Shown piece after piece: positions 21,789-31,819 of a DNA stretch of 34,135 nucleotides. The notes beneath the pieces are model-generated. The model saw only the letters and a program-made list of their open reading frames with translations, did not search any database and had not been told where the DNA came from. The position numbers and the translations under genes are program-made. Source of the stretch: Candidatus Binatia bacterium. GTDB taxonomy: Bacteria > Eisenbacteria > RBG-16-71-46 > SZUA-252. Where the stretch lies: NCBI GenBank assembly GCA_035631035.1, contig DASQJL010000022.1, positions 1-34,135 of the forward strand, given 5' to 3'. Position 1 is the stretch's first letter. Each line of letters opens with the position of its first letter.

Positions 21789-22217
21789 GTGCCGGGGCGA
21801 ATCCTGGTCGTCGAAGACGACCCGATGAACGCCAAGCTGTTCCAGCTGATCCTGGCGCGCAAGGCGGGGTTGACGGTCGAGGTGACCGAGGACCCGGCGC
21901 TGGTGCTGGAGCGCGCCCGCTCCGGCGACATCGACGTGATCATCATGGACGTCTCGCTCTCGAACAGCGAGTGGGACGGAACGCCGGTCGACGGACTCGA
22001 GATCTCGCGGCGGCTCAAGCGGGACCCCGTGGCCGGCCGGATCCCGATCCTCCTCGCGACCGCCCACGCCATGAAGGGCTCCCGCGAGAACTTCCTGCGC
22101 GCCTCAGGCGCGGACGACTACATCTCCAAGCCGATCGTGAGCGCCGATGAGCTGGTCGCGCGCATCGAAGCCCTGATCGAGAAGAGGAACCATGCCCTTC
22201 CGCCTCCTCCTCGTTGA
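21789..22217 (+). CDS. Single-domain response regulator (CheY-like)
   Basis: A 142-residue receiver with no output domain. It has the acidic triad at 9-11 (VEDD), phospho-acceptor Asp54 (IIMDVSL), Thr91 and Lys114 (YISKP). A loop after the phospho-site (SNSEWDGTPVDG) is longer than usual, as in DivK-like proteins. The GTG start at 21789 follows AAGGAGG, a strong ribosome site, and the kinase ends 12 bases upstream. Likely role: accept phosphate from the upstream kinase and pass it on or bind a target. Its last 26 bases overlap the start of the next gene in another frame, so the two are translationally linked. Confidence 0.93.
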   Translation: MPGRILVVEDDPMNAKLFQLILARKAGLTVEVTEDPALVLERARSGDIDVIIMDVSLSNSEWDGTPVDGLEISRRLKRDPVAGRIPILLATAHAMKGSRENFLRASGADDYISKPIVSADELVARIEALIEKRNHALPPPPR

Positions 22218-22992
22218 CGACGAAGCGCACAACCGGAAGCTGCTCCGGATGGTGCTCCGCAAGGGCGAGTACGAGTTCTTCGACGCGGAGGACGGCGGCA
22301 AGGCGCTGGACATCCTGGCGAAGGAGACGATCGATCTCGTCCTGCTCGACCTGATGATGCCGAACCCGAACGGCTTCGACGTGCTCCACGCCATGCGGTC
22401 GAACGACCTTCACCGCGACATCCCGATCATCGTCGCGAGCGCCTCCACCGCGCCCGACGACGTGGAGCGCAGCCTGAGCATGGGGGCGGTGGACTACTTC
22501 ATGAAGCCGCTCACCGAGTGGGACATCCGCTTCCAGCTCCCGATCAAGGTGCGGAACGCGATCGCGCTCCACCGGGCCAGCGACGAGCGGCTCAAGGCGG
22601 AGCGGATGAAGGCGGTCTCGGCGATGGCGGTGGCGCTGAACCACGAGATCAACAACCCCTTACAAGTCATCCAGGGGAACGCGCAGCTCCTCTACGTGCA
22701 CCCCGGAATCCCTCCCGAGGCCCGGGAGAAGGTGCAGCGGATCCGCCAGGCCACGGAAACGATCGCGGGGCTGACGCACCGCGTGGCCGCGCTCCGCGAC
22801 ATCGTGACGGTGGACTATCCGGCGGGAAACCGGACCACGGTTCCGATGGTGAGCTTCAAGGCCTCGACGACGACCCGCGAGGGCGGGACCCACGGAGCGG
22901 CGAACGGCGGAAGCGCGGTGGACGGAGCAGCGGGCGGAGGCGGCGCCCCCGAATCGAACGACGCGCCCCCTCAGATCCCCAGCGCGGGGTAG
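22192..22992 (+). CDS. Receiver fused to a histidine-kinase dimerisation domain lacking the ATPase domain
   Basis: A 266-residue protein. Residues 1-122 form a complete receiver (VDDE at 8-11, Asp53 in LLDLMMP, Lys105 in YFMKP). Residues 135-205 form a dimerisation/phosphoacceptor domain with an H box, NHEINNPLQVIQG (His151). The ATPase domain that should follow is missing: after about 210 there is only a low-complexity Gly/Ala/Ser-rich tail up to the stop. The DNA at the end shows no ATPase remnant in another frame, because the convergent membrane gene occupies it. It may act as a phosphotransfer hub (from Asp to His) or be a substrate for the upstream kinase. The ATG at 22192 has AGAGGAA upstream and overlaps the preceding gene by 26 bases. 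The end overlaps the convergent gene by 22 bases. Confidence 0.85.
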   Translation: MPFRLLLVDDEAHNRKLLRMVLRKGEYEFFDAEDGGKALDILAKETIDLVLLDLMMPNPNGFDVLHAMRSNDLHRDIPIIVASASTAPDDVERSLSMGAVDYFMKPLTEWDIRFQLPIKVRNAIALHRASDERLKAERMKAVSAMAVALNHEINNPLQVIQGNAQLLYVHPGIPPEAREKVQRIRQATETIAGLTHRVAALRDIVTVDYPAGNRTTVPMVSFKASTTTREGGTHGAANGGSAVDGAAGGGGAPESNDAPPQIPSAG

Positions 22993-23612
22993 AGCCAGTT
23001 CAGGATCAGGAAGTTGAGGCGGCCGAGCAGCAGCGCGATTCGGCCCATCACGGTGAACCCGAAGGCCGCGCCGAACGAGACCATCAGGAACCAGATCCCC
23101 AGCCGCGCGATCCGCGACGTGACCGCGTTCTGCTCCTTCGAGAAGAAGAAGTAGGTCAGGACGCTGTAGACCCCCACGATGAAGACGAGCGATACGAGCA
23201 GCGTGTTCGCGTTCATCGGCCAGAGCGGCTGGATCGTGCGGGCGAGCTGCGGCAGCACCTCGCCGTGGATGCGCCGCGTGAACTCGACGCCGATGTAGTA
23301 GGCCACGTAGATCGCCAGCGCGTAGCGCGAGACCCACCCGATCCGCGGCAGGTAGCGCACGTAGAGCAGGACCCCGATCCCCCCCGCCACGAGCAGATCC
23401 CAGTTCCCGGCGAAGTCGGACTTCAGCGGCACGTAGAGATTCGGCACCAGCGTCTGGTTCAGCACGATGCCGATGTAATAGCCGAGAGAGACGCCCGCGA
23501 AGAGGCTCTCGGCGAAGCGGAAGAACGGGTTGTCCTTGTAGAGGAACGAGAAGGCGAAGAGCGTGAGGAGCGCCGGGATCCAGATCCCGATTCCGGGGAA
23601 GGTCGCGCTCAC
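22971..23612 (-). CDS. Polytopic membrane protein of unknown function (cassette gene 4)
   Basis: A 213-residue protein with about six hydrophobic segments, beginning IWIPALLTLFAFSFLY and including SLGYYIGIVLNQTLVP, LLVAGGIGVLLYVRYLP, YALAIYVAYYIGV, TLLVSLVFIVGVYSVLTYFFF and a C-terminal FGFTVMGRIALLLGRLNF stretch. There is no signal peptide and no enzyme motif. The GTG start at 23612 has AAGGGGG upstream. It is the last of four same-strand genes encoding membrane-bound proteins; the gap to the gene before is 34 bases. I do not recognise a named family with confidence. A role as a membrane subunit of a complex with the other three is inferred from synteny only. Confidence 0.8.
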   Translation of the reverse strand: MSATFPGIGIWIPALLTLFAFSFLYKDNPFFRFAESLFAGVSLGYYIGIVLNQTLVPNLYVPLKSDFAGNWDLLVAGGIGVLLYVRYLPRIGWVSRYALAIYVAYYIGVEFTRRIHGEVLPQLARTIQPLWPMNANTLLVSLVFIVGVYSVLTYFFFSKEQNAVTSRIARLGIWFLMVSFGAAFGFTVMGRIALLLGRLNFLILNWLYPALGI

Positions 23613-23646
23613 GCCCGGGCCCCCTTCGATCCGCCGTCCGTCCGGC

Positions 23647-24525
23647 TCATACCGCCCTGCGCTCCTTCCCGCGCGTCACCAGGAACGCCACGTTCCCCAG
23701 GATGATGAACAGGAGGATCACGGTGTGGAGCACCGTCTGTCCGTCCATCCCCTTCGTGGCCGTGAAGTACTTGGTCTCGTGGTAGTAGCGGTTCAGCTGC
23801 GGGTACTTCGCCATGAGGAGCTTCTCGTATTCCGCCGCTCCCTTCATGCCGCCGAACATTCCCTCGAGCTGCCCCGCGTTCAGATAGGCGTAGTACTTGG
23901 GCGCGCTCACCGCGGTCGGGCCGATGATGATCGGCGTGCCGTACTGGGCGTGGACCTGGGTGATCCAGTACTCCCCGATGACCCCCGTGGCCACCGTGAA
24001 GACGAGGGCGACGTGGCGGATGTCGTGGATCCCCCGCATGATCGGAAACTCGGCGATCGGCCGCCCGTTCACGTCGGTCGGGAACGCGTCGCCGATGTTG
24101 TCCCCCAGCCGGCGCATCACCGCCGCCGCGCCGTCCTTGTAGCCGAGATTGATGTAGTCCACGCCGTAGCGGAGGCCCGGCATCTCGGCCGCGACGCGCG
24201 CCACCGAGTTGTTCGCGAGCCCCAGGCCGCCGAGCGGGTAGAAGGCGCACACGATGACGCGCACTTTCTTGAGGAAGCACTGGCGCAGGAACGCCTCCGC
24301 CATCGGATCGTTCTCGGGCGCCGACGAGGGACCGTAGTCGTAGGAGATCCAGACCACGTCGGTCGGCTTCAGCCGCTCGATGAACTCGAACGCCCGGCGC
24401 GTGGACGAGGTGGTGGTGACCGGCAGCCCGATCGGGACGACGATCGGCGTGATGAGGCTCACCAGCACGAAGAGATAGATCCACCGGCGATCGAGGGCGA
24501 GAAGCCAGCGGAAGAAGCGCTGCAC
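23647..24525 (-). CDS. Membrane-anchored protein with central soluble domain, unknown function (cassette gene 3)
   Basis: A 292-residue protein with one helix near each end: about 14-36 (WIYLFVLVSLITPIVVPIG) and about 266-286 (TVILLFIILGNVAFLVTR). The central 230 residues form an alpha/beta domain: VVWISYDYGPSSAPEN, then RVIVCAFYPLGG, YGVDYINLGYKDG, and later TPIIIGPTAVSAPKYYAYL. Its C-terminal half has the same order of strands and aromatic patches as the soluble domain of cassette gene 1, so distant homology is possible. No catalytic motif is recognised. The GTG start at 24525 follows GAGGGGG and lies 14 bases after the previous gene's stop, so the operon structure is clear. Confidence 0.78.
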   Translation of the reverse strand: MQRFFRWLLALDRRWIYLFVLVSLITPIVVPIGLPVTTTSSTRRAFEFIERLKPTDVVWISYDYGPSSAPENDPMAEAFLRQCFLKKVRVIVCAFYPLGGLGLANNSVARVAAEMPGLRYGVDYINLGYKDGAAAVMRRLGDNIGDAFPTDVNGRPIAEFPIMRGIHDIRHVALVFTVATGVIGEYWITQVHAQYGTPIIIGPTAVSAPKYYAYLNAGQLEGMFGGMKGAAEYEKLLMAKYPQLNRYYHETKYFTATKGMDGQTVLHTVILLFIILGNVAFLVTRGKERRAV

Positions 24526-24539
24526 CTAGCGGCCCCCTC

Positions 24540-25343
24540 TCACGACTCGCTGCTCCCCAGACCGAGATAGCCGCGCTCGATCCCGAGGATGATGCGGATG
24601 GCCATCGAGGCGGCGCCGAGGGCGGCGCCGATGATGATCCCCGACTGCGCGGCGCCGTTGGGCGTGTCCATGATCCATTCCGTGAGCCGGCCGAGGGCCT
24701 GGCTGGCCGTGGCCGCGGCGGGCTGGAGCGGCGGAAAGGGAACCGCCAGGAACTCGAGGAGCGGCACGCGCCCCGCCATCACGAGGGCCGCGGCGATCAG
24801 GAGGATCGTGGCCTCCGTGTTCCGCGCGCGGAAGGCCCGAAACGCGGCGCTCGCCATGAAGAAGGCGAGCAGCGAGAAGATCGTCGACTGGAGCGGCTGA
24901 AAGAACTTGTCCTCCATCCATTTGAACGGCGTGGAGGATCCGTCGGGGGCGAATCCGATCCCCTGTCCCGAGACGGCGCCCCAGATGGAGAAGGAGCCCA
25001 TGACGAAGAGCCCCGTCAGGAGCACGGCCGCGAAGAACCATCCCGTCTCGCGGCGCGCGATCTTCCGTGTGTTGTTCTGGATCACGTTCACGATGCCGAG
25101 GAGGAGCGCGAATCCGGCCACGATGATGAGCCACTGGTCCAGACGGGGACTCATCCCCGTTTCGCCGGAGAGGAAGCTCTTGGGAATGTAGAGGGAGAGG
25201 ATCGGGACGATGCCGGCGATGAACGCGACGAGGAGCGGAATCCGGCTCCGCATCGCCGGGCTCCGCATCCCGAGCGCGATGCCGATCGTGGGCAGCACGA
25301 AGAAACAGGCGACCAGGGCGACGCGCCCGAACTCGAGGTTCAC
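24540..25343 (-). CDS. Polytopic membrane protein of unknown function (cassette gene 2)
   Basis: A 267-residue protein with six or seven hydrophobic segments, including VALVACFFVLPTIGIALG, IPLLVAFIAGIVPILSLYIP, WLIIVAGFALLLGIVNVI, WFFAAVLLTGLFVMGSF and, near the end, SGIIIGAALGAASMAIRIILG. GTG 25343 is preferred over the longer frame to 25532: GGGGAGA lies just upstream and the extension is arginine/serine-rich noise overlapping gene 1. It is 31 bases downstream of gene 1 and 14 upstream of gene 3. No motif allows a function. It lies with three other membrane proteins and likely forms a complex with them. Confidence 0.78.
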   Translation of the reverse strand: MNLEFGRVALVACFFVLPTIGIALGMRSPAMRSRIPLLVAFIAGIVPILSLYIPKSFLSGETGMSPRLDQWLIIVAGFALLLGIVNVIQNNTRKIARRETGWFFAAVLLTGLFVMGSFSIWGAVSGQGIGFAPDGSSTPFKWMEDKFFQPLQSTIFSLLAFFMASAAFRAFRARNTEATILLIAAALVMAGRVPLLEFLAVPFPPLQPAAATASQALGRLTEWIMDTPNGAAQSGIIIGAALGAASMAIRIILGIERGYLGLGSSES

Positions 25344-25374
25344 GCCGCGATCTCCCCGGGACGCGCCGTGGGTC

Positions 25375-26592
25375 TCATTGGGTCTGGAGGATCTTCGTGA
25401 TCCACGTGCTGCCGAACGTGGCGAACGCGATTCCGGCGAGGCCGACCACGATGCAGAGCGCCTTGAAGATGTCCTGCCCGCGGATCGAGCCGAGGAGCAC
25501 CGGCTCGCGCGAGAGGTAGGCGCTCGCGGCATACAGCTCCTCGCCGATCAGCGTGTAGTCGCAGGTCGCGACGAAGAACGGCAGCTGGGTCGGATCGGCC
25601 TGCCCCGCGATCTGGATGGCGCCGACCGACTGCCCCGTCTCGGCCAGGATCAGCGATTCGGCGAAGAAGTACCCGACCAGGAAGATCGTGGCCGGGCGCT
25701 CGCGCACCATGCGCGCCGAAACCGCCGCGGTGAAGGCGAACTGGTCGTACGTCACGTAGTTCACCATCTCCTCGCGGTAGAGGTCGGGACGCCCCTCGGC
25801 GAGATAGGCGGCGCGCACCGTTTCGCGCGCGGAGGCGAAGGTGAGCGGATCCTTGTTCGCGACGTCGAGGTCGGTGCCGTAGCGCGCGGTCGCGCGCGCG
25901 ACGTGCCCCAGGATCGACATCGAGGCCACGGTCTGGATGTCGTCCATGCTCTGGATGCCCGGGACGTAGAGCACCTTCTTCCCGGTCTCGGTCGCACGGC
26001 CGATCGCCTCGTCCACGGCGTTCAGCCCGGCGATGCGCCGGATGAAGATCGGCTTGCCGGAGCGGGCCATCTGGATCGAGCCGAGGAGCGCGACGAGGAA
26101 GATGATCGTGGCGATGAGCGAGTTGGTGCGGTCTTTGCGGAACCAGTTGTCGTGCGCCGAGGCCGGCTCGCTCACGACGGCGGGTCCCGCCGGGGCGGCG
26201 ATCGCCGCGGCGGCGGCGCGGGTCGTATCGGCCGGCGCGGCGGGGGCTTGAACGCGGAGCTCGTAGCGGTAGGTGTGCTTCTCCACCGCGCTCGCGTCCT
26301 TGTAGGTCTGCGTCCCGAGCGGCACCTCCGCGAGCGCCTTCCACTCGAACGCCGGCGCCTCGGCGCGGCGGATCTCGATCACCGACCCGGCGGGAACCGC
26401 CGCGCTGTCGGGATCGGCCCACGTGAGAAGAATCGAACCCCCGGAATCGCCGGGATTGTCCTGAGCAACGAAGTTCGTGGGAGCGGGAAGCGCGAGGCCG
26501 GGGACTGGCAAGGGGGTCGCGGCGCCCTGGGCCGATACCGCCGCGGGCGCGCTCAGGACGGCCAGAAGGAAGAAACCCACGGCCCATCGCAC
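25375..26592 (-). CDS. Signal-peptide, fibronectin-III-like, membrane-anchored protein, DUF6754-like (cassette gene 1)
   Basis: A 405-residue protein. Residues 1-22 are a signal peptide (VGFFLLAVLSAPAAVSAQ). Residues about 36-117 look like a fibronectin type III domain (PTNFVAQDNPGDSGGSILLTW, then TYRYELRV). A helix at about 156-175 (SLIATIIFLVALLGSIQMA) leads into a conserved-looking soluble domain (180-370) starting PIFIRRIAGLNAVDEAIGRA and containing KVLYVPGIQSMDDIQT. A last helix is at about 378-397. From memory the second half fits the uncharacterised family DUF6754; I could not check this. Start GTG 26592 has no Shine-Dalgarno; a -10 box is 7 bases upstream, so the mRNA may be leaderless. 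It opens the four-gene cassette and follows a methyltransferase by 33 bases. Confidence 0.8.
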   Translation of the reverse strand: MRWAVGFFLLAVLSAPAAVSAQGAATPLPVPGLALPAPTNFVAQDNPGDSGGSILLTWADPDSAAVPAGSVIEIRRAEAPAFEWKALAEVPLGTQTYKDASAVEKHTYRYELRVQAPAAPADTTRAAAAAIAAPAGPAVVSEPASAHDNWFRKDRTNSLIATIIFLVALLGSIQMARSGKPIFIRRIAGLNAVDEAIGRATETGKKVLYVPGIQSMDDIQTVASMSILGHVARATARYGTDLDVANKDPLTFASARETVRAAYLAEGRPDLYREEMVNYVTYDQFAFTAAVSARMVRERPATIFLVGYFFAESLILAETGQSVGAIQIAGQADPTQLPFFVATCDYTLIGEELYAASAYLSREPVLLGSIRGQDIFKALCIVVGLAGIAFATFGSTWITKILQTQ

Positions 26593-26599
26593 GGGGCGC

Positions 26600-26629
26600 A
26601 GCCTATCGGCGCGCCGCGCGGGGTGTCAA
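26600..26629 (-). promoter_or_regulatory. Sigma-70-like promoter of the four-gene membrane cassette
   Basis: On the reverse strand TTGACA (26629-26624), 18-base spacer, TAGGCT (26605-26600), then 7 bases to the GTG start at 26592. The TGA inside TTGACA is the stop codon of the upstream methyltransferase (26628-26626). Start codon and transcription start would nearly coincide. Confidence 0.55.
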
Positions 26630-27684
26630 CGTACTTTTCGCCCCCGGATTCGCATGATCGGCCACACGTAGACGGAAAGCGCGGGCCAGCGGGTGCAGAG
26701 AAAACGAAGAACGTCCTTCACCCACTGCCGCGGATGGGTCTCGATCTTCCGGGAGAAGAAGGCGGGGAGAAGCTCCGGGCGGAGTCCGGCCTCCGTGAAC
26801 TTCTCCATCATCCAGAAGGGATTCAGCTCGCGCTCGGGGTACTGGCCGTCCCGCGGGTCGCGATAGCCGAACTCCGGGCGTCGCCGGACGGCCCCCGTCT
26901 CGAGCAACTCCCGCGTCCCCTCGATCACGTCGTGGCCCACCAGCCCGCGCGTCGCGCGCGTCGCCTCGAAGAGCTGGTTCCGCGCGAGCGAAGGGAAGTG
27001 CTCGCCGATCAGGGCCCGGCGCGCCGCGAAGTAGGGGCCGTTCGGCTCGGCTTCCATGTCGCGCCATCCGCGCCGGCGGCGTCCCCGCGCCGGCAGGTAG
27101 AGGGAGTTGTTCTCGTCGCTCAGGAAGAAGATGCCCCCCGGCCGGAGCAGCCGGTTGGCTTCACGCAGGAATCCCTCGAGGTCGCGGACGTGGGAGATCA
27201 CGCAGTTGGCCATGACCCCGTCGAACGACGCCGACGGGAGCTCCATCGCGATCCCGTCCCCGTACCGCGATTCGAAGTGCTCGGGCGAGAGGGGCGGATC
27301 GACCGCCTGGGCCAGGTAGGCGCCGACGGCGACCATGTCGCGGTCGATCTCGGTGGCGAGCACCCGGCGGGCGCCGTAGATGGCGACCAGCAGGGCCTCG
27401 ATGCCGAACCCCGCCCCCAGGTCGAGCACGTCCTTCCCCTCGGCTTCCAGGTAGTCGTACATCGCGCGTCCCTTCTGGAAGACGTGCTCGATGCGCGCCG
27501 GATTCCGGAGGATGTTCAGATGCTTGTAGTAGACGAGGAAGTACTCGGGGAGCTTCTCGCGCAGGGCGGCGTCGCTCTGCATGAGGATCGCGCGGAGCGA
27601 GGCGAGGCGGCGGGCGGCCGTTCCGCCCGCGGGCCCGTGCGCCGCCTGCGAGGCGGGCCCGCGCGCGGTCGCTTCCGGGGTCAC
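26626..27684 (-). CDS. Class I SAM-dependent methyltransferase
   Basis: A 352-residue protein (or 318 if it starts at ATG 27582). Motif I is DVLDLGAGFGIEAL (residues 85-98), followed by VLATEIDRDMV at strand 2, and later SFDGVMANCVISHVRDLEGFL and LLRPGGIFFLSDENN, the post-motif regions of the Methyltransf_11 type. The C-terminal 150 residues are Arg-rich and contain aromatic patches (PYFAARRALIGEHF, NPFWMMEKFTEAG). Substrate unknown; a sugar, lipid or small molecule would all be possible. The GTG at 27684 overlaps the TGA of the sigma-54 activator gene as GTGA, so translation is coupled. I rejected the much longer open frame to 29499, which runs out of frame through that activator. Confidence 0.85.
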   Translation of the reverse strand: MTPEATARGPASQAAHGPAGGTAARRLASLRAILMQSDAALREKLPEYFLVYYKHLNILRNPARIEHVFQKGRAMYDYLEAEGKDVLDLGAGFGIEALLVAIYGARRVLATEIDRDMVAVGAYLAQAVDPPLSPEHFESRYGDGIAMELPSASFDGVMANCVISHVRDLEGFLREANRLLRPGGIFFLSDENNSLYLPARGRRRRGWRDMEAEPNGPYFAARRALIGEHFPSLARNQLFEATRATRGLVGHDVIEGTRELLETGAVRRRPEFGYRDPRDGQYPERELNPFWMMEKFTEAGLRPELLPAFFSRKIETHPRQWVKDVLRFLCTRWPALSVYVWPIMRIRGRKVR

Positions 27685-29429
27685 TGCCCGCTGGATTCGC
27701 TGAGGATCCGCGCGCGGCGGATCCCGTGGAAGTTCATCCGATTGTGGAGGTGCTGCCGGCTCACGCCCAGGGCGCGCGCCGCTCGCGACACGTTCGACTC
27801 GCACTGCCGGAGCGCCTCGCGGATCGTCTCGGCCTCGACGGAGTCCAGCGTCTCCCGCAGCGAGTGCTGGCCGTCCCACCGCCGGGATACCGTCGCCCCC
27901 AGCCCGAACAGGGAGGGCTCGAGCGGCGCCCCTTCGTCGGCCAGCGCGACCGCGCGGGCCATGGCGTTCTCCAACTCCCGGACGTTGCCCGGCCACGGGT
28001 AGCGCAGGAGCAGCTCCCGCGACTCCACGGTGAGGCCGCGGGTCGCTTTCGACTGCTGCTTCGCGAAGAGGTCCAGGAAGTGCTGCGCGAGGAGAAGGAT
28101 GTCCTCGCCGCGCTCGCGGAGCGGCGGCGATTCGATCGGCACCACGTTCAAGCGGTAGAAGAGATCCTGGCGGAAGCGCCCGCCGTCCACCTCGGCGCGG
28201 AGGTCGCGGTTCGTGGCGGTGATCAGGCGGATGTCCACGCGGCGGCTGACCGTGTCGCCCACGCGCCGGATCTGCGAATCTTGGAGCACGCGGAGGAGCT
28301 TGACCTGAAGCGAAGCGGGCATCTCCCCCACCTCGTCGAGGAAGAGCGTTCCCTGGTCGGCCGCTTCGAACAGTCCGACGCGGTCCTCGTTCGCTCCCGT
28401 GAAGGCGCCCTTCTTGTAGCCGAACAGCTCGCTCTCGAGCAGGTTCTCCGGGAGCGCGCCGCAATTGACGGCGATGAAGTTCCGGTCCTTGCGCGGCCCG
28501 TGCAGATGGATCGCGCGCGCGACCAGCTCTTTCCCCGTCCCGGTCTCGCCGGTGACCAGAACCGAGACCTGGGTCGGGATCACCTTCTCCATCAGGTCCA
28601 CGACGCGCTGCATGCGGGGGCTCTTGCCGATCAGGAGTCCGTAGCGGACGTCCTCCTTGAGCGCGCGGCGGAGATTCAGATTCTCGATCTCGAGGCGGTT
28701 CTTGGAATCCTTCAGCGCCTCGTGGAGGCGCGCGTTCTCGAGCGCCACGGCGACCAGCGCGGCGAAGCCCTCGAGGAGGGCGATGTCCTCGGGCGTGAAC
28801 TCGTGCGCGATGGAGTGGGAGTCGATGTAGAGCACGCCGAGGACGCGTCCCGCGTTCGAGATCGGAAGCGCGACGACGGTGCGGAGCGAAAGCTCCCGCA
28901 CGCTCTTTCGATCCTGGAAGAGCGAGGAGCCCATCGCGTCGGGAACCCAGACGGTCTCGCGGCGGTGCGCGGCCTCTTCGGCGATCCCCCACGAGATCTG
29001 GAAGTCGTCGGAGGAGACCGTGGTCTCGTCCTTGCTGCGCGCGACCTCGAAGTGGAGCTTGCCGTCTTCCCGGCAGAGCATCAGGAATCCGCGATCCGCC
29101 CCGGCGACCTGCACCACCGCGTCCACGATGCGCACGAGGAGCTCGTTCAGATCGAGCGTGCTCGTGACGGTGCGGCTCGCGTGCAGCAGATGCTGCAGCC
29201 GGTCGAGATCGGAGGTGACCCGGGGTCGCGAAGGCGATCGCGGCTGGGTCAGGAGCTCCCGTTCCCACTGCGAGAGCCCGCGGCTCAGAGCTTCGAGGGG
29301 GTCGTTCTCGGGAAGGTTCGCGGGATGGCTCCCCAGGGGCCGCGAAAGCGGGTCCCCGAGGGGCTTGCCCAGGGGGTTCGACGAGGCGGCCGACTCGTTC
29401 TCGTGGAATGGATCGGTGTGTTGGGACAT
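27681..29429 (-). CDS. GAF-domain sigma-54-dependent activator
   Basis: A 582-residue enhancer-binding protein. The N-terminal 60 residues contain a repeated Pro-Leu-Gly motif (PLGKPLGDPLSRPLG, 19-33). A GAF sensor domain covers about 85-235 (LDLNELLVRIVDAVV ... RVLGVLYIDSHS). The AAA+ core has Walker A GETGTGK (294-300), intact GAFTGA (341-346) and Walker B TLFLDE (361-366), with RPDLFYRLN-type R-finger sequence as RQDLFYRLNVV. A Fis-type helix-turn-helix ends it (ESNVSRAARALGVSRQHLHNRMNFHGI). The layout recalls NifA and NorR, which sense small molecules or redox state through GAF. ATG 29429 has AAGGA upstream. The next gene overlaps the stop codon, and the membrane cassette follows, so it is likely part of the same unit. 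The signal is unknown. Confidence 0.94.
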   Translation of the reverse strand: MSQHTDPFHENESAASSNPLGKPLGDPLSRPLGSHPANLPENDPLEALSRGLSQWERELLTQPRSPSRPRVTSDLDRLQHLLHASRTVTSTLDLNELLVRIVDAVVQVAGADRGFLMLCREDGKLHFEVARSKDETTVSSDDFQISWGIAEEAAHRRETVWVPDAMGSSLFQDRKSVRELSLRTVVALPISNAGRVLGVLYIDSHSIAHEFTPEDIALLEGFAALVAVALENARLHEALKDSKNRLEIENLNLRRALKEDVRYGLLIGKSPRMQRVVDLMEKVIPTQVSVLVTGETGTGKELVARAIHLHGPRKDRNFIAVNCGALPENLLESELFGYKKGAFTGANEDRVGLFEAADQGTLFLDEVGEMPASLQVKLLRVLQDSQIRRVGDTVSRRVDIRLITATNRDLRAEVDGGRFRQDLFYRLNVVPIESPPLRERGEDILLLAQHFLDLFAKQQSKATRGLTVESRELLLRYPWPGNVRELENAMARAVALADEGAPLEPSLFGLGATVSRRWDGQHSLRETLDSVEAETIREALRQCESNVSRAARALGVSRQHLHNRMNFHGIRRARILSESSGQ

Positions 29430-29490
29430 CGCGTCCTTGCCTCACAGTGCCGGCGCGCCCTGCGCGTCGGAAGGTCCCGGTCGACGACGT

Positions 29491-29519
29491 AGAATACAAC
29501 TGTAAAACTAGATTGTCAA
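29491..29519 (-). promoter_or_regulatory. Strong sigma-70-like promoter of the activator/methyltransferase genes
   Basis: On the reverse strand TTGACA (29519-29514), 17-base spacer, TATTCT (29496-29491). Predicted start near 29484, about 55 bases before the ATG. The TGA inside TTGACA is the stop codon of the upstream phosphoglycosyltransferase gene. Local AT content stands out. Confidence 0.7.
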
Positions 29520-30541
29520 GTGTCGGAACGGGGGGTGGGACGCTTCCGTCTCAGGGAAACCCCGAAAATGGCGTATCCAAGCGCCAAAATTAGAACTGCG
29601 CCCACCGCGAGCGGAGCGCTTTTCAGGCTCCAGACGCCGATTCCGACGGCGGAAGTGACGGTCACCAGGAGTGAAATCAAGGCCACCGTCCCCCACCGTC
29701 CACAAATCCGACCAAGTCGGTGGGTGGTGTGGTCGGTGCTTCCCTCGGCGATGGGACGGCCCGTGACCAGGCGGTCGAAGACCACGAAGAGGACGTCGAA
29801 GAAGGGGTACGAAAGAATACAGAGAACCCCCGCCGCGTGGGGCACGGTGAGGGCGTCGTCCAGGGCCTGCAGCGCCAGGGTGGCCAGGACGAAGCCGAGC
29901 AGGTGGCTCCCCGCGTCGCCCAGAAAGATGCGCGCGGGCGGGGCGTTGTAGACAAAGAATCCGGCGCAGGCTCCCGCCAGCGCCCATCCGAGCGCGCGAT
30001 CCATTCCGGCCCCGAAGAGGAGCGACAGGGCGAGGAATCCGGCCGCCGAGATCGGAACGATCGCGGCGACGATGCCGTCCATCGCGTCGAGGAAGTTCAC
30101 CGCGTTGAGCAGGCCGACGACGCCGACGAGGGCGATCGCCGCCAGGAGCGGCTGCTGCGCGAGGAATCCGCCGCCGCGAGCGCCCCAGAGAATCAACGTG
30201 ACCGCGACCGCGATCTGCCCCGCGAGCTTCCCCATCGGCCGCATCGGCCGGCGATCGTCCACCAGCCCGAGCGCGAGCGAGAGCGCGGCTCCGAAGAGCA
30301 CTCCGGCGCGTGGCCATTCGATGTCGGCGTGGAGGAGGACGTTCCCGAGGACCATGCCCAGCGCGACCGCGAGGGCGACGGCCACGCCGCCGAGAAGCGG
30401 CGTCGGCTCGGGATGGTGCTTCCGCGGGTCGGGATGGTCGAGGTATCCGAGGGCGGGCGCGAGGCGACGGAAGAGCGGCGTGACGACGAGCGCCGCAACG
30501 AATGCGAGCGGGGCGACGAGCGGTGTCAGGTGCGACGTCAA
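29516..30541 (-). CDS. WecA/TagO/MraY-family undecaprenyl-phosphate sugar-1-phosphate transferase
   Basis: A 341-residue polytopic membrane enzyme with about ten helices. The cytoplasmic-loop motifs of the family are all visible: DHPDPRKHHPEPTPLLGG (35-52), the Mg-binding Asp pair LGLVDD (91-96), NFLDAMDGI (149-157), ARIFLGDAGSHLLGF (about 202-216) and HTTHRLG (about 274-280). It starts a surface glycan by adding a sugar-phosphate, probably GlcNAc-1-phosphate, to undecaprenyl phosphate. The short size and HxxHR-type motif favour WecA/TagO over MraY. The start is a TTG at 30541 with GAGGA about 10 bases upstream; no other start is available in frame before it. It is 48 bases after the GT4 gene. 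Confidence 0.92.
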   Translation of the reverse strand: MTSHLTPLVAPLAFVAALVVTPLFRRLAPALGYLDHPDPRKHHPEPTPLLGGVAVALAVALGMVLGNVLLHADIEWPRAGVLFGAALSLALGLVDDRRPMRPMGKLAGQIAVAVTLILWGARGGGFLAQQPLLAAIALVGVVGLLNAVNFLDAMDGIVAAIVPISAAGFLALSLLFGAGMDRALGWALAGACAGFFVYNAPPARIFLGDAGSHLLGFVLATLALQALDDALTVPHAAGVLCILSYPFFDVLFVVFDRLVTGRPIAEGSTDHTTHRLGRICGRWGTVALISLLVTVTSAVGIGVWSLKSAPLAVGAVLILALGYAIFGVSLRRKRPTPRSDT

Positions 30542-30589
30542 GCCGCGCGCGTCCTCAGGCGGGAGGCGGCGTCACGCGGAGCGCATCGC

Positions 30590-31819
30590 TCAGAGCGGGA
30601 GCGCCCGGATCGGTGTCGACGCCCGGCCCCCGCGGGCGCCGACGTCGCGCGCCGATTCGATCGCGAGCACCGAGGCGTCCCACGTGAAGCGGGCGCGCGC
30701 CCAGGCGCGGCCGAGACCGCCCAGCGCGGCCGCCGCCCCGGGATCGCGAAGGAGTGCGACGGCGTGCGCCGCGAGGGTGCCGGCATCCTCCCCGATGCGG
30801 AGGATCCCCTCGGGAACGGGCTCGAGGCCGGCCCGCACGGCCGGCGTGGTCACCACCGGCGTGCCGCTGGCCAGCGCCTGGACCACCTTGTTCTGAACGC
30901 CCGCGGCGAAGCGATGCGGCGCCACGAACAGCGTGGAGCGGGCGAGCTCGTCCTCGGGATCGTCCACGAATCCCAGCACCCGCACGCCGGGGACCCGCTC
31001 GGCCCACCCGCGCAGCGCGTCGGAGCCCTTCCCCGCGATCGCGAGCGTCGCCTCGGGCACTTCGGCCCGCACGCGGGGGAAGACCTCGTGCACCAGGAAC
31101 CGGACGGCGTCGCGATTGTGGAACACGTCGTGAAATCCGAGGAACAGGAGGCGCGCCCGCTCGCGCGCGGCGGGAGCGCGCAGCCGCTCGGGATGCATTC
31201 CGTTGGGAACGACCCGCACGCGAGCCTCGGGGGCGATGCGCGCGAGGTGGCGGGCCTCGGCCTGGCTGATCACCCAGCATTCGTGGAACCGGGGCGCCAC
31301 CCCCGCTTCGTAGTCGCGGATGCGCGGCCCCTCGACCTGATAGAGCCATCGGTCCATGCCGCGCCGGAACGGGAGCGAGCGCTCGATCCCCGCGGAGATG
31401 ACGTCGGTGAGATCGAGGATCCAGCGGGCGCGCCCGCGGCCCACGTGCGGCAGCGCGTAGGGCGCCATGCGGAAGAGGTGCGTCACGACGACGTGGGGTC
31501 GCACGCGGCGCATCGTCTCCTCCACGCGCTCCCGCATGCGCGCGGAGCGGTAGTACGCGGCCTGGAGCGGAAAGCGCCCGGGGATCGCCTGCGCCGCGCG
31601 CAGCCAGGAGAGGGGACGCGGGAGCGGCACCGTGTCCACGCTCCGGAGGGTTCGGCGCAGCGGGGCGAGATCGTCCTCGCTCTGGCGCCGCGTGTCGAAC
31701 GAAAGGAGGTGGACCGCATGCCCGGCTTCCGCCGCCGCGCGCATCATGTGATAGACGCGGAACCGGTCGCCTCCGACCGGCGGGTAGGGCATGCGCGACG
31801 TGAGGACGAGGACGCGCAT
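30590..31819 (-). CDS. GT4-type glycosyltransferase, resembling the exosortase-associated TIGR03087 group
   Basis: A 409-residue GT-B enzyme. It opens RVLVLTSRMPYPPVGGDRFR, which is like TIGR03087 proteins found with PEP-CTERM/exosortase systems. The C-terminal half has LFLGFHDVFHNRDAVRFLV, then ATLAIAGKG, VRVLGFVDDPEDELA and the donor-binding region FAAGVQNKVVQALASGTPVVTT with the family's usual Lys-Val-Leu/Val-x-Ala pattern. It likely extends the lipid-linked glycan begun by the enzyme downstream. ATG 31819 was chosen because the family starts there; the longer frame to 31909 has none of its features. There is no Shine-Dalgarno: an extended -10 sits 9 bases upstream. No exosortase gene is in the window, so that link is unproved. 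Confidence 0.88.
   Translation of the reverse strand: MRVLVLTSRMPYPPVGGDRFRVYHMMRAAAEAGHAVHLLSFDTRRQSEDDLAPLRRTLRSVDTVPLPRPLSWLRAAQAIPGRFPLQAAYYRSARMRERVEETMRRVRPHVVVTHLFRMAPYALPHVGRGRARWILDLTDVISAGIERSLPFRRGMDRWLYQVEGPRIRDYEAGVAPRFHECWVISQAEARHLARIAPEARVRVVPNGMHPERLRAPAARERARLLFLGFHDVFHNRDAVRFLVHEVFPRVRAEVPEATLAIAGKGSDALRGWAERVPGVRVLGFVDDPEDELARSTLFVAPHRFAAGVQNKVVQALASGTPVVTTPAVRAGLEPVPEGILRIGEDAGTLAAHAVALLRDPGAAAALGGLGRAWARARFTWDASVLAIESARDVGARGGRASTPIRALPL

Follow-up and report, generated by a model that had tools for sequence, protein, structure and literature searches.

In the energy-coupling factor (ECF)-type vitamin transporters, one shared energising module works with many interchangeable membrane modules, and it is with this arrangement, with the ATPases of the MutL/GlmL group (PF13941; NF040745, NF040744), with the Rnf/NQR ion pumps and with the Pfam family DUF6754 (PF20539), which has no assigned function, that the locus described here can be compared. 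The locus lies in a stretch of 34,135 nucleotides from a Candidatus Binatia bacterium, corresponding to the whole of contig DASQJL010000022.1 (the window, or C22); the host genome of 3.35 Mb is 97% complete, and its named relatives are mostly Candidatus Eisenbacteria. It consists of four minus-strand genes, A, B, C and D, at 22971–26592, which are kept together in several phyla and appear to be accompanied, in most of their hosts, by a soluble module made of a MutL-family ATPase, a protein named c4 and, often, a small protein named c7. A is a full-length member of DUF6754, and the description of that family includes neither the partners B, C and D nor the link to MutL and c4.

Gene A (25375–26592, minus strand) encodes a protein of 405 aa with a signal-like N-terminal helix, an Fn3 domain (26239–26493, minus strand, approximately residues 34–118), a transmembrane (TM) helix, the DUF6754 alpha/beta domain and a C-terminal TM helix. 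The match to the DUF6754 profile (25390–26154, minus strand) has an E-value of 1.5e-112 and a score of 375 bits against a cut-off of 27, and covers profile positions 2–256 of 257; the Fn3 domain was recognised by profile matches to Fn3 chains in the PDB and by Foldseek. Gene B (24540–25343, minus strand, GTG start) encodes a membrane protein of 267 aa with six core TM helices, to which an N-terminal extension in the window's family probably adds a seventh. Gene C (23647–24525, minus strand) encodes 292 aa in which an alpha/beta domain stands between two TM helices, and gene D (22971–23612, minus strand) a membrane protein of 213 aa with six predicted TM helices. The intergenic gaps A–B, B–C and C–D measure 31, 14 and 34 bp, respectively. 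The 3' end of D overlaps by 22 bp (22971–22992) a convergent response-regulator gene (22192–22992, plus strand). The initial annotation, made from the letters alone, had placed four minus-strand genes at these positions with gaps of 14–34 bases and had read them as a signal-peptide/fibronectin-like/DUF6754-like protein, a membrane protein of 6–7 helices, a soluble domain anchored at both ends and a six-helix membrane protein, and all of this agrees with our results. Its remark that none of the four shows a recognised enzyme motif was also borne out, with no catalytic family returned for A–D by Pfam, NCBIfam, PADLOC and searches with the alignment members.

B, C and D matched no Pfam, NCBIfam or PADLOC family, and neither their profiles nor the DUF6754 part of A found a PDB chain at a meaningful E-value. 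Among the alignment members of B, C and D no carrier family (TRAP, tripartite tricarboxylate or other) was detected, the sole match being DUF6677 with an E-value of 0.006, and no ATP-binding cassette (ABC) family exceeded the cut-off in A–D in Pfam and NCBIfam; the partner ATPase is of the MutL type. Several candidate identities were considered and dismissed, namely B as TMD0_ABC (E 0.13, below the cut-off), D as a transhydrogenase (a weak profile match with E 0.56) and B and D as paralogues of each other (negative profile comparison). No known fold was accepted for C, for which the best PDB TM-scores were about 0.2–0.35 (glycosyltransferases and transhydrogenase domain III), nor for A beyond Fn3, to which its PDB matches were limited. 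An anti-phage defence system was rejected, A–D matching no PADLOC model, as was a mobile or phage origin, with no plasmid match and no relative among viral contigs.

The unity of the four genes was evaluated by profile searches of loci in other genomes. Of the 125 A genes with enough downstream sequence, 120 were followed co-directionally by B, C and D with the order unchanged, a count in which some loci overlap one another and in which the genes of the relatives were called with a simple codon model. Independent profile searches of a sample of 290 genomes, largely metagenome-derived and centred on and enriched for the lineage of the window, detected A in 108 genomes and C in 109, with 106 in common; outside the window's phylum, A was present in 63 of 243 genomes, C in 63 and both in 61. 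The hypergeometric values for this co-occurrence are very small, with independence overstated by the kinship of the genomes, and the co-occurrence holds across many families. Carriers with a name belong to Eisenbacteria, Latescibacterota, Planctomycetota, Binatia and Bacillota, and A was absent from all 14 named control genomes in the profile search. The four genes are thus found together elsewhere, and the suggestion that their close spacing implies a complex gains support from the conserved order and from the genomes holding both A and C. We conclude that A, B, C and D almost certainly form one obligate inner-membrane complex (hereafter ABCD). That they are instead unrelated membrane genes brought together by chance, or a transporter already known that was overlooked, is extremely improbable, with a gene order kept across phyla and no family or structure match to any described system; nothing in favour of either possibility was found.

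The cassettes have been duplicated as units, and tandem copies occur in several genomes. In the window's phylum, A was found in 45 of 47 genomes, with 1–7 copies each, whereas five of the six Bacillota genomes hold 9–27 copies, one of them 27 in 3.8 Mb and another 15 in 1.5 Mb. The window genome has three copies of ABCD, located on C22 and on two further contigs, C130 and C27. In the third copy of the window's family (L073, L075, L093), A starts 32–52 bp after a gene for a large membrane/TPR protein (637–651 aa where complete).

AlphaFold models of A and C, built from 18–19 aligned sequences, reached a mean predicted local distance difference test (pLDDT) score of 80.1 and a predicted TM-score (pTM) of 0.61 for A, and of 89.4 and 0.83 for C. 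In the models the soluble parts of the two proteins, each enclosed by two TM helices, share the order of helices and strands; the comparison of the two domain profiles gave an E-value of 0.0013 in a single test and a probability of 18%, so that homology between them is suggestive only. From family-averaged charges and the positive-inside rule, the domain of A is predicted to lie inside the cell, that of C outside, and the N-terminus of B inside. The Bacillota members of A lack the Fn3 part, which would fit a periplasmic role in diderms. Near-invariant residues are GRATE, Q335, CDY and D373..K376 in A, and E233, H266 and N277 in C (numbering without the start Met).

The soluble partners were recognised outside the window. 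The copy on C130 and many others are preceded by c7, by a MutL-family ATPase and by c4 (approximately 374 aa), and in many loci c7-MutL-c4 lies directly upstream of an ABCD copy. The partner ATPase matches PF13941 above the cut-off (412 bits, positions 1–450 of 450); it scores 219 bits against the GlmL model, 204 against that of the ornithine-degradation (Or-4) type and 158 against glmL_fam, where the cut-offs are 475, 600 and 204, respectively. Since it reaches neither of the NCBIfam thresholds set for GlmL and the ornithine-pathway type, it is a distinct branch; it differs from the GlmL-type proteins in its greater length (approximately 600 aa), in its pairing with c4 and in accompanying ABCD where they accompany a mutase. 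No Pfam match was obtained for c4 and c7 among the members first tested. c4 was found in 102 of the 290 genomes, and all 102 also have A (59 of 59 outside the window's phylum); in 83 of the 102, c4 lies within 2.5 kb of MutL. Moreover, the two proteins are naturally fused in three loci, as MutL::c4 polypeptides of about 850–985 aa (L224:6131-9088, L225:3151-5697, L226:6321-9170); in the first, of 985 aa, MutL spans 45–515 and a barrel-sandwich (RnfC_N) match 695–737. A functional partnership between ABCD and MutL-c4 is, on these grounds, very likely. Most genomes have one full-length c4 and several ABCD copies, and the module would therefore act in trans; in the window genome, MutL and c4 are located on C130.

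The same distribution is compatible with a more modest role, in which MutL-c4-c7 is a mere chaperone for assembly or reactivation and ABCD is driven by an ion gradient. One full-length c4 usually serving several ABCD copies, the annotation of GlmL-type proteins as accessory proteins and the lack of a c4 match in Binatia all speak for it, whereas the co-occurrence in every c4-bearing genome and the repeated operon linkage would fit a stoichiometric subunit too. We regard a chaperone role as possible, though somewhat short of an even chance, and since it can coexist with transport by ABCD the two should not be weighed as exclusive. In Bacillota, extra divergent MutL-c4 pairs occur, some beside genes for FtsX/MacB-like ABC permeases; in L218:6831-13121 and L219:3853-7080 such pairs stand within clusters of FtsX/MacB-like ABC permeases and ATPases, with ABCD not adjacent. 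The MutL-c4 module may thus also work with a membrane system of a different kind.

Paralogues of c4 match RnfC_N, the barrel-sandwich domain of Rnf/NQR, and the Biotin_lipoyl domain, and this raises the question whether ABCD could be a membrane-bound enzyme, or an ion pump, whose substrates are amino-acid derivatives, with c4 and MutL carrying or reactivating a catalytic step in the manner of Rnf or of a decarboxylase pump. To judge from family names, relatives of MutL accompany B12-dependent amino-acid mutases, one ABCD copy, that on C130, is found with glycine-cleavage and lipoate-ligase genes in the run GcvT-GcvH-GcvPA-GcvPB-c14-c7-MutL-c4-ABCD-lipoate ligase (L074:2353-13987), and the nearly invariant residues of A and C could be read in the same sense. 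This run is kept in many related genomes, often with a dipeptide ABC transporter after it. On the other hand, A–D and c4 showed no recognisable catalytic, flavin, Fe-S or biotinyl-lysine motif, no enzyme fold was matched, and a set of divergent paralogues that numbers up to 27 in one genome is better explained by substrate specificity than by a single pump. An Rnf/NQR pump proper was rejected, as no membrane, flavin or Fe-S subunit of Rnf/NQR was found in the cassette and the barrel-sandwich domain alone, in the c4 paralogues, is shared. An enzyme or pump of this kind is, in our judgement, unlikely.

The gene neighbourhoods argue, rather, for transport. In Bacillota, nine co-directional genes with a product of 150 aa or more lie no further than 100 bp after D; eight of them encode metal-dependent amidohydrolases, compared with 7 of the 250 other genes of these loci (Fisher p ~1e-10). 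The amidohydrolase queries came in part from the adjacent genes, and Pfam confirmed the assignments. Adjoining or nearby genes encode, among others, D-aminoacylase-like proteins, creatininase, alanine racemase, 5-oxoprolinase (LamB/YcsF), M20 and M14 peptidases and TldD/PmbA, together with the histidine-degradation enzymes urocanase, histidase and formiminotransferase; names without a Pfam assignment were read from the sequence. Examples are the runs creatininase-ABCD-D-aminoacylase-alanine racemase (L147), ABCD-D-aminoacylase-pyridoxal phosphate (PLP) enzyme-dehydrogenase (L151), ABCD-5-oxoprolinase (L146) and ABCD-M20 hydrolase (L168); no transporter-like component other than ABCD is evident in these four. 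Other copies adjoin dipeptide ABC transporters (Opp), OPT, the Na+/dicarboxylate symporter SDF, DUF819 and glycine-cleavage genes. The common theme of the neighbours is the catabolism of amino acids and peptides, and it suggests uptake of amino-acid or peptide-like nutrients. Based on this gene context, a transport role of ABCD has close to an even chance.

That several unrelated transporter classes adjoin ABCD could also be expected if it were an accessory to them, that is, a transmembrane sensor or regulator in which C would detect an external ligand and A pass the state on to the inside, with control of the neighbouring transporters and catabolic enzymes as the outcome. Such a device would be in keeping with the alpha/beta domains, one predicted on each side of the membrane, and with the sigma-54 activator preceding the window copy. 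No output domain (kinase, helix-turn-helix (HTH), cyclase or GGDEF) was found in A–D, two separate multi-TM subunits exceed what a receptor usually needs, and the gene run frequently shows no further transporter; a sensor is accordingly improbable.

We favour transport, and propose the following model. Gene unity, the co-occurrence of ABCD with MutL-c4, the MutL::c4 fusions, the fold models and the neighbour statistics were obtained by computation, and from them we infer a physical complex whose topology, substrate binding, transport activity, direction and use of an ATPase are predicted. B and D would form the membrane core and the substrate path; C, with its alpha/beta domain tethered to the membrane on the outer side, would capture the substrate; A would place its DUF6754 domain inside the cell and, in diderm hosts, add a periplasmic Fn3 domain. 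The cytosolic MutL/GlmL-like ATPase and the barrel-sandwich protein c4, often with c7 encoded beside them, would usually act in trans on every ABCD copy in a cell, and the domain of A may couple to MutL-c4, be it to gain energy or to permit assembly and gating. The direction would probably be uptake, with peptides, N-acyl or D-amino acids, amides and products of histidine breakdown as candidate substrates. The whole of this explanation, an ABCD complex which together with MutL-c4 carries out substrate-specific transport of amino-acid-type compounds, falls slightly below an even chance.

Several observations weigh against it. No known transporter family or fold was found for B or D; the window copy itself adjoins a regulator and a methyltransferase, not catabolic genes; and the Opp, OPT, SDF and DUF819 transporters beside several copies may already cover the transport of the pathway substrates. 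To our knowledge, ATPases of the MutL-type ASKHA group are not known to drive transport. Genomes of Binatia and Planctomycetota (G053-G057, G064) have ABCD and gave no c4 match, so that either MutL-c4 is not always needed or c4 is too divergent there. Finally, a few DUF6754 genes stand alone (L180:7145-8263, L184:7730-8899, L188:11878-12999, L179:12261-13475), possibly as stand-alone variants of A.

If transport is assumed, the likeness to ECF transporters would lie in the numbers, as usually one full-length c4-MutL pair is found for 1–7 copies of ABCD and a shared module could serve many. Unlike in ECF systems, the partner ATPase is ASKHA/MutL-like and not of the ABC type, and B and D do not belong to the ECF-T or S families in Pfam. 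It is conceivable, albeit rather doubtful, that ABCD and MutL-c4-c7 represent a new class of ATP-driven multi-subunit transporter, in which the two alpha/beta domains facing either side of the membrane are structurally related and many substrate-specific copies are energised by a shared ASKHA-type ATPase.

As regards the immediate surroundings of the window copy, a gene for an S-adenosylmethionine (SAM) methyltransferase (26626–27684, minus strand) lies directly upstream of A, after a gap of 33 bp, and is overlapped by 4 bp by the gene of a GAF/sigma-54 activator/Fis-HTH regulator (27681–29429, minus strand), in accordance with the gene order and domains first proposed. The methyltransferase is directly upstream of A in 12 of the 12 compared loci of the window copy's family and is probably an operon partner of the window-type copy only. 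By contrast, the initial annotation had also given A–D a promoter of their own, and this found no support. The search for sigma-70-like sites in 22700–30700 found none in front of A, which starts 33 bp past the methyltransferase stop; its sole match, at 29519–29491 (minus strand) and by consensus only, is upstream of the regulator gene. With this single site, the short gap and the 4-bp overlap, A–D appear to close a longer transcript, as the last four genes of an operon of six.

The judgement that this was the best candidate in the window for an undescribed system has stood, no gene of A–D belonging to a known transporter or enzyme family and their order being kept across phyla; what that first reading had missed are the soluble partners MutL, c4 and c7, the high paralogy and the neighbours of amino-acid and peptide catabolism. 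The four-gene unit, its multiplication and its partnership with MutL-c4 appear to be undescribed, DUF6754 being a Pfam name only. No paper on DUF6754 or on the system was found in the literature searched, outside which most subscription papers fall, and an earlier mention is possible.

The finding concerns a seven-gene system present in over one third of the sampled genomes. It defines four protein families, three of them without a Pfam entry, in addition to c4 and c7, and provides a new constant partner for the MutL/GlmL ATPases, which are poorly understood. Since the catabolic neighbours point to concrete substrates, the function is directly testable. Should ABCD be a transporter, its family would be new and its mode of energisation perhaps new as well, and it would become easier to understand how uncultivated fermenters live on amino acids and peptides.

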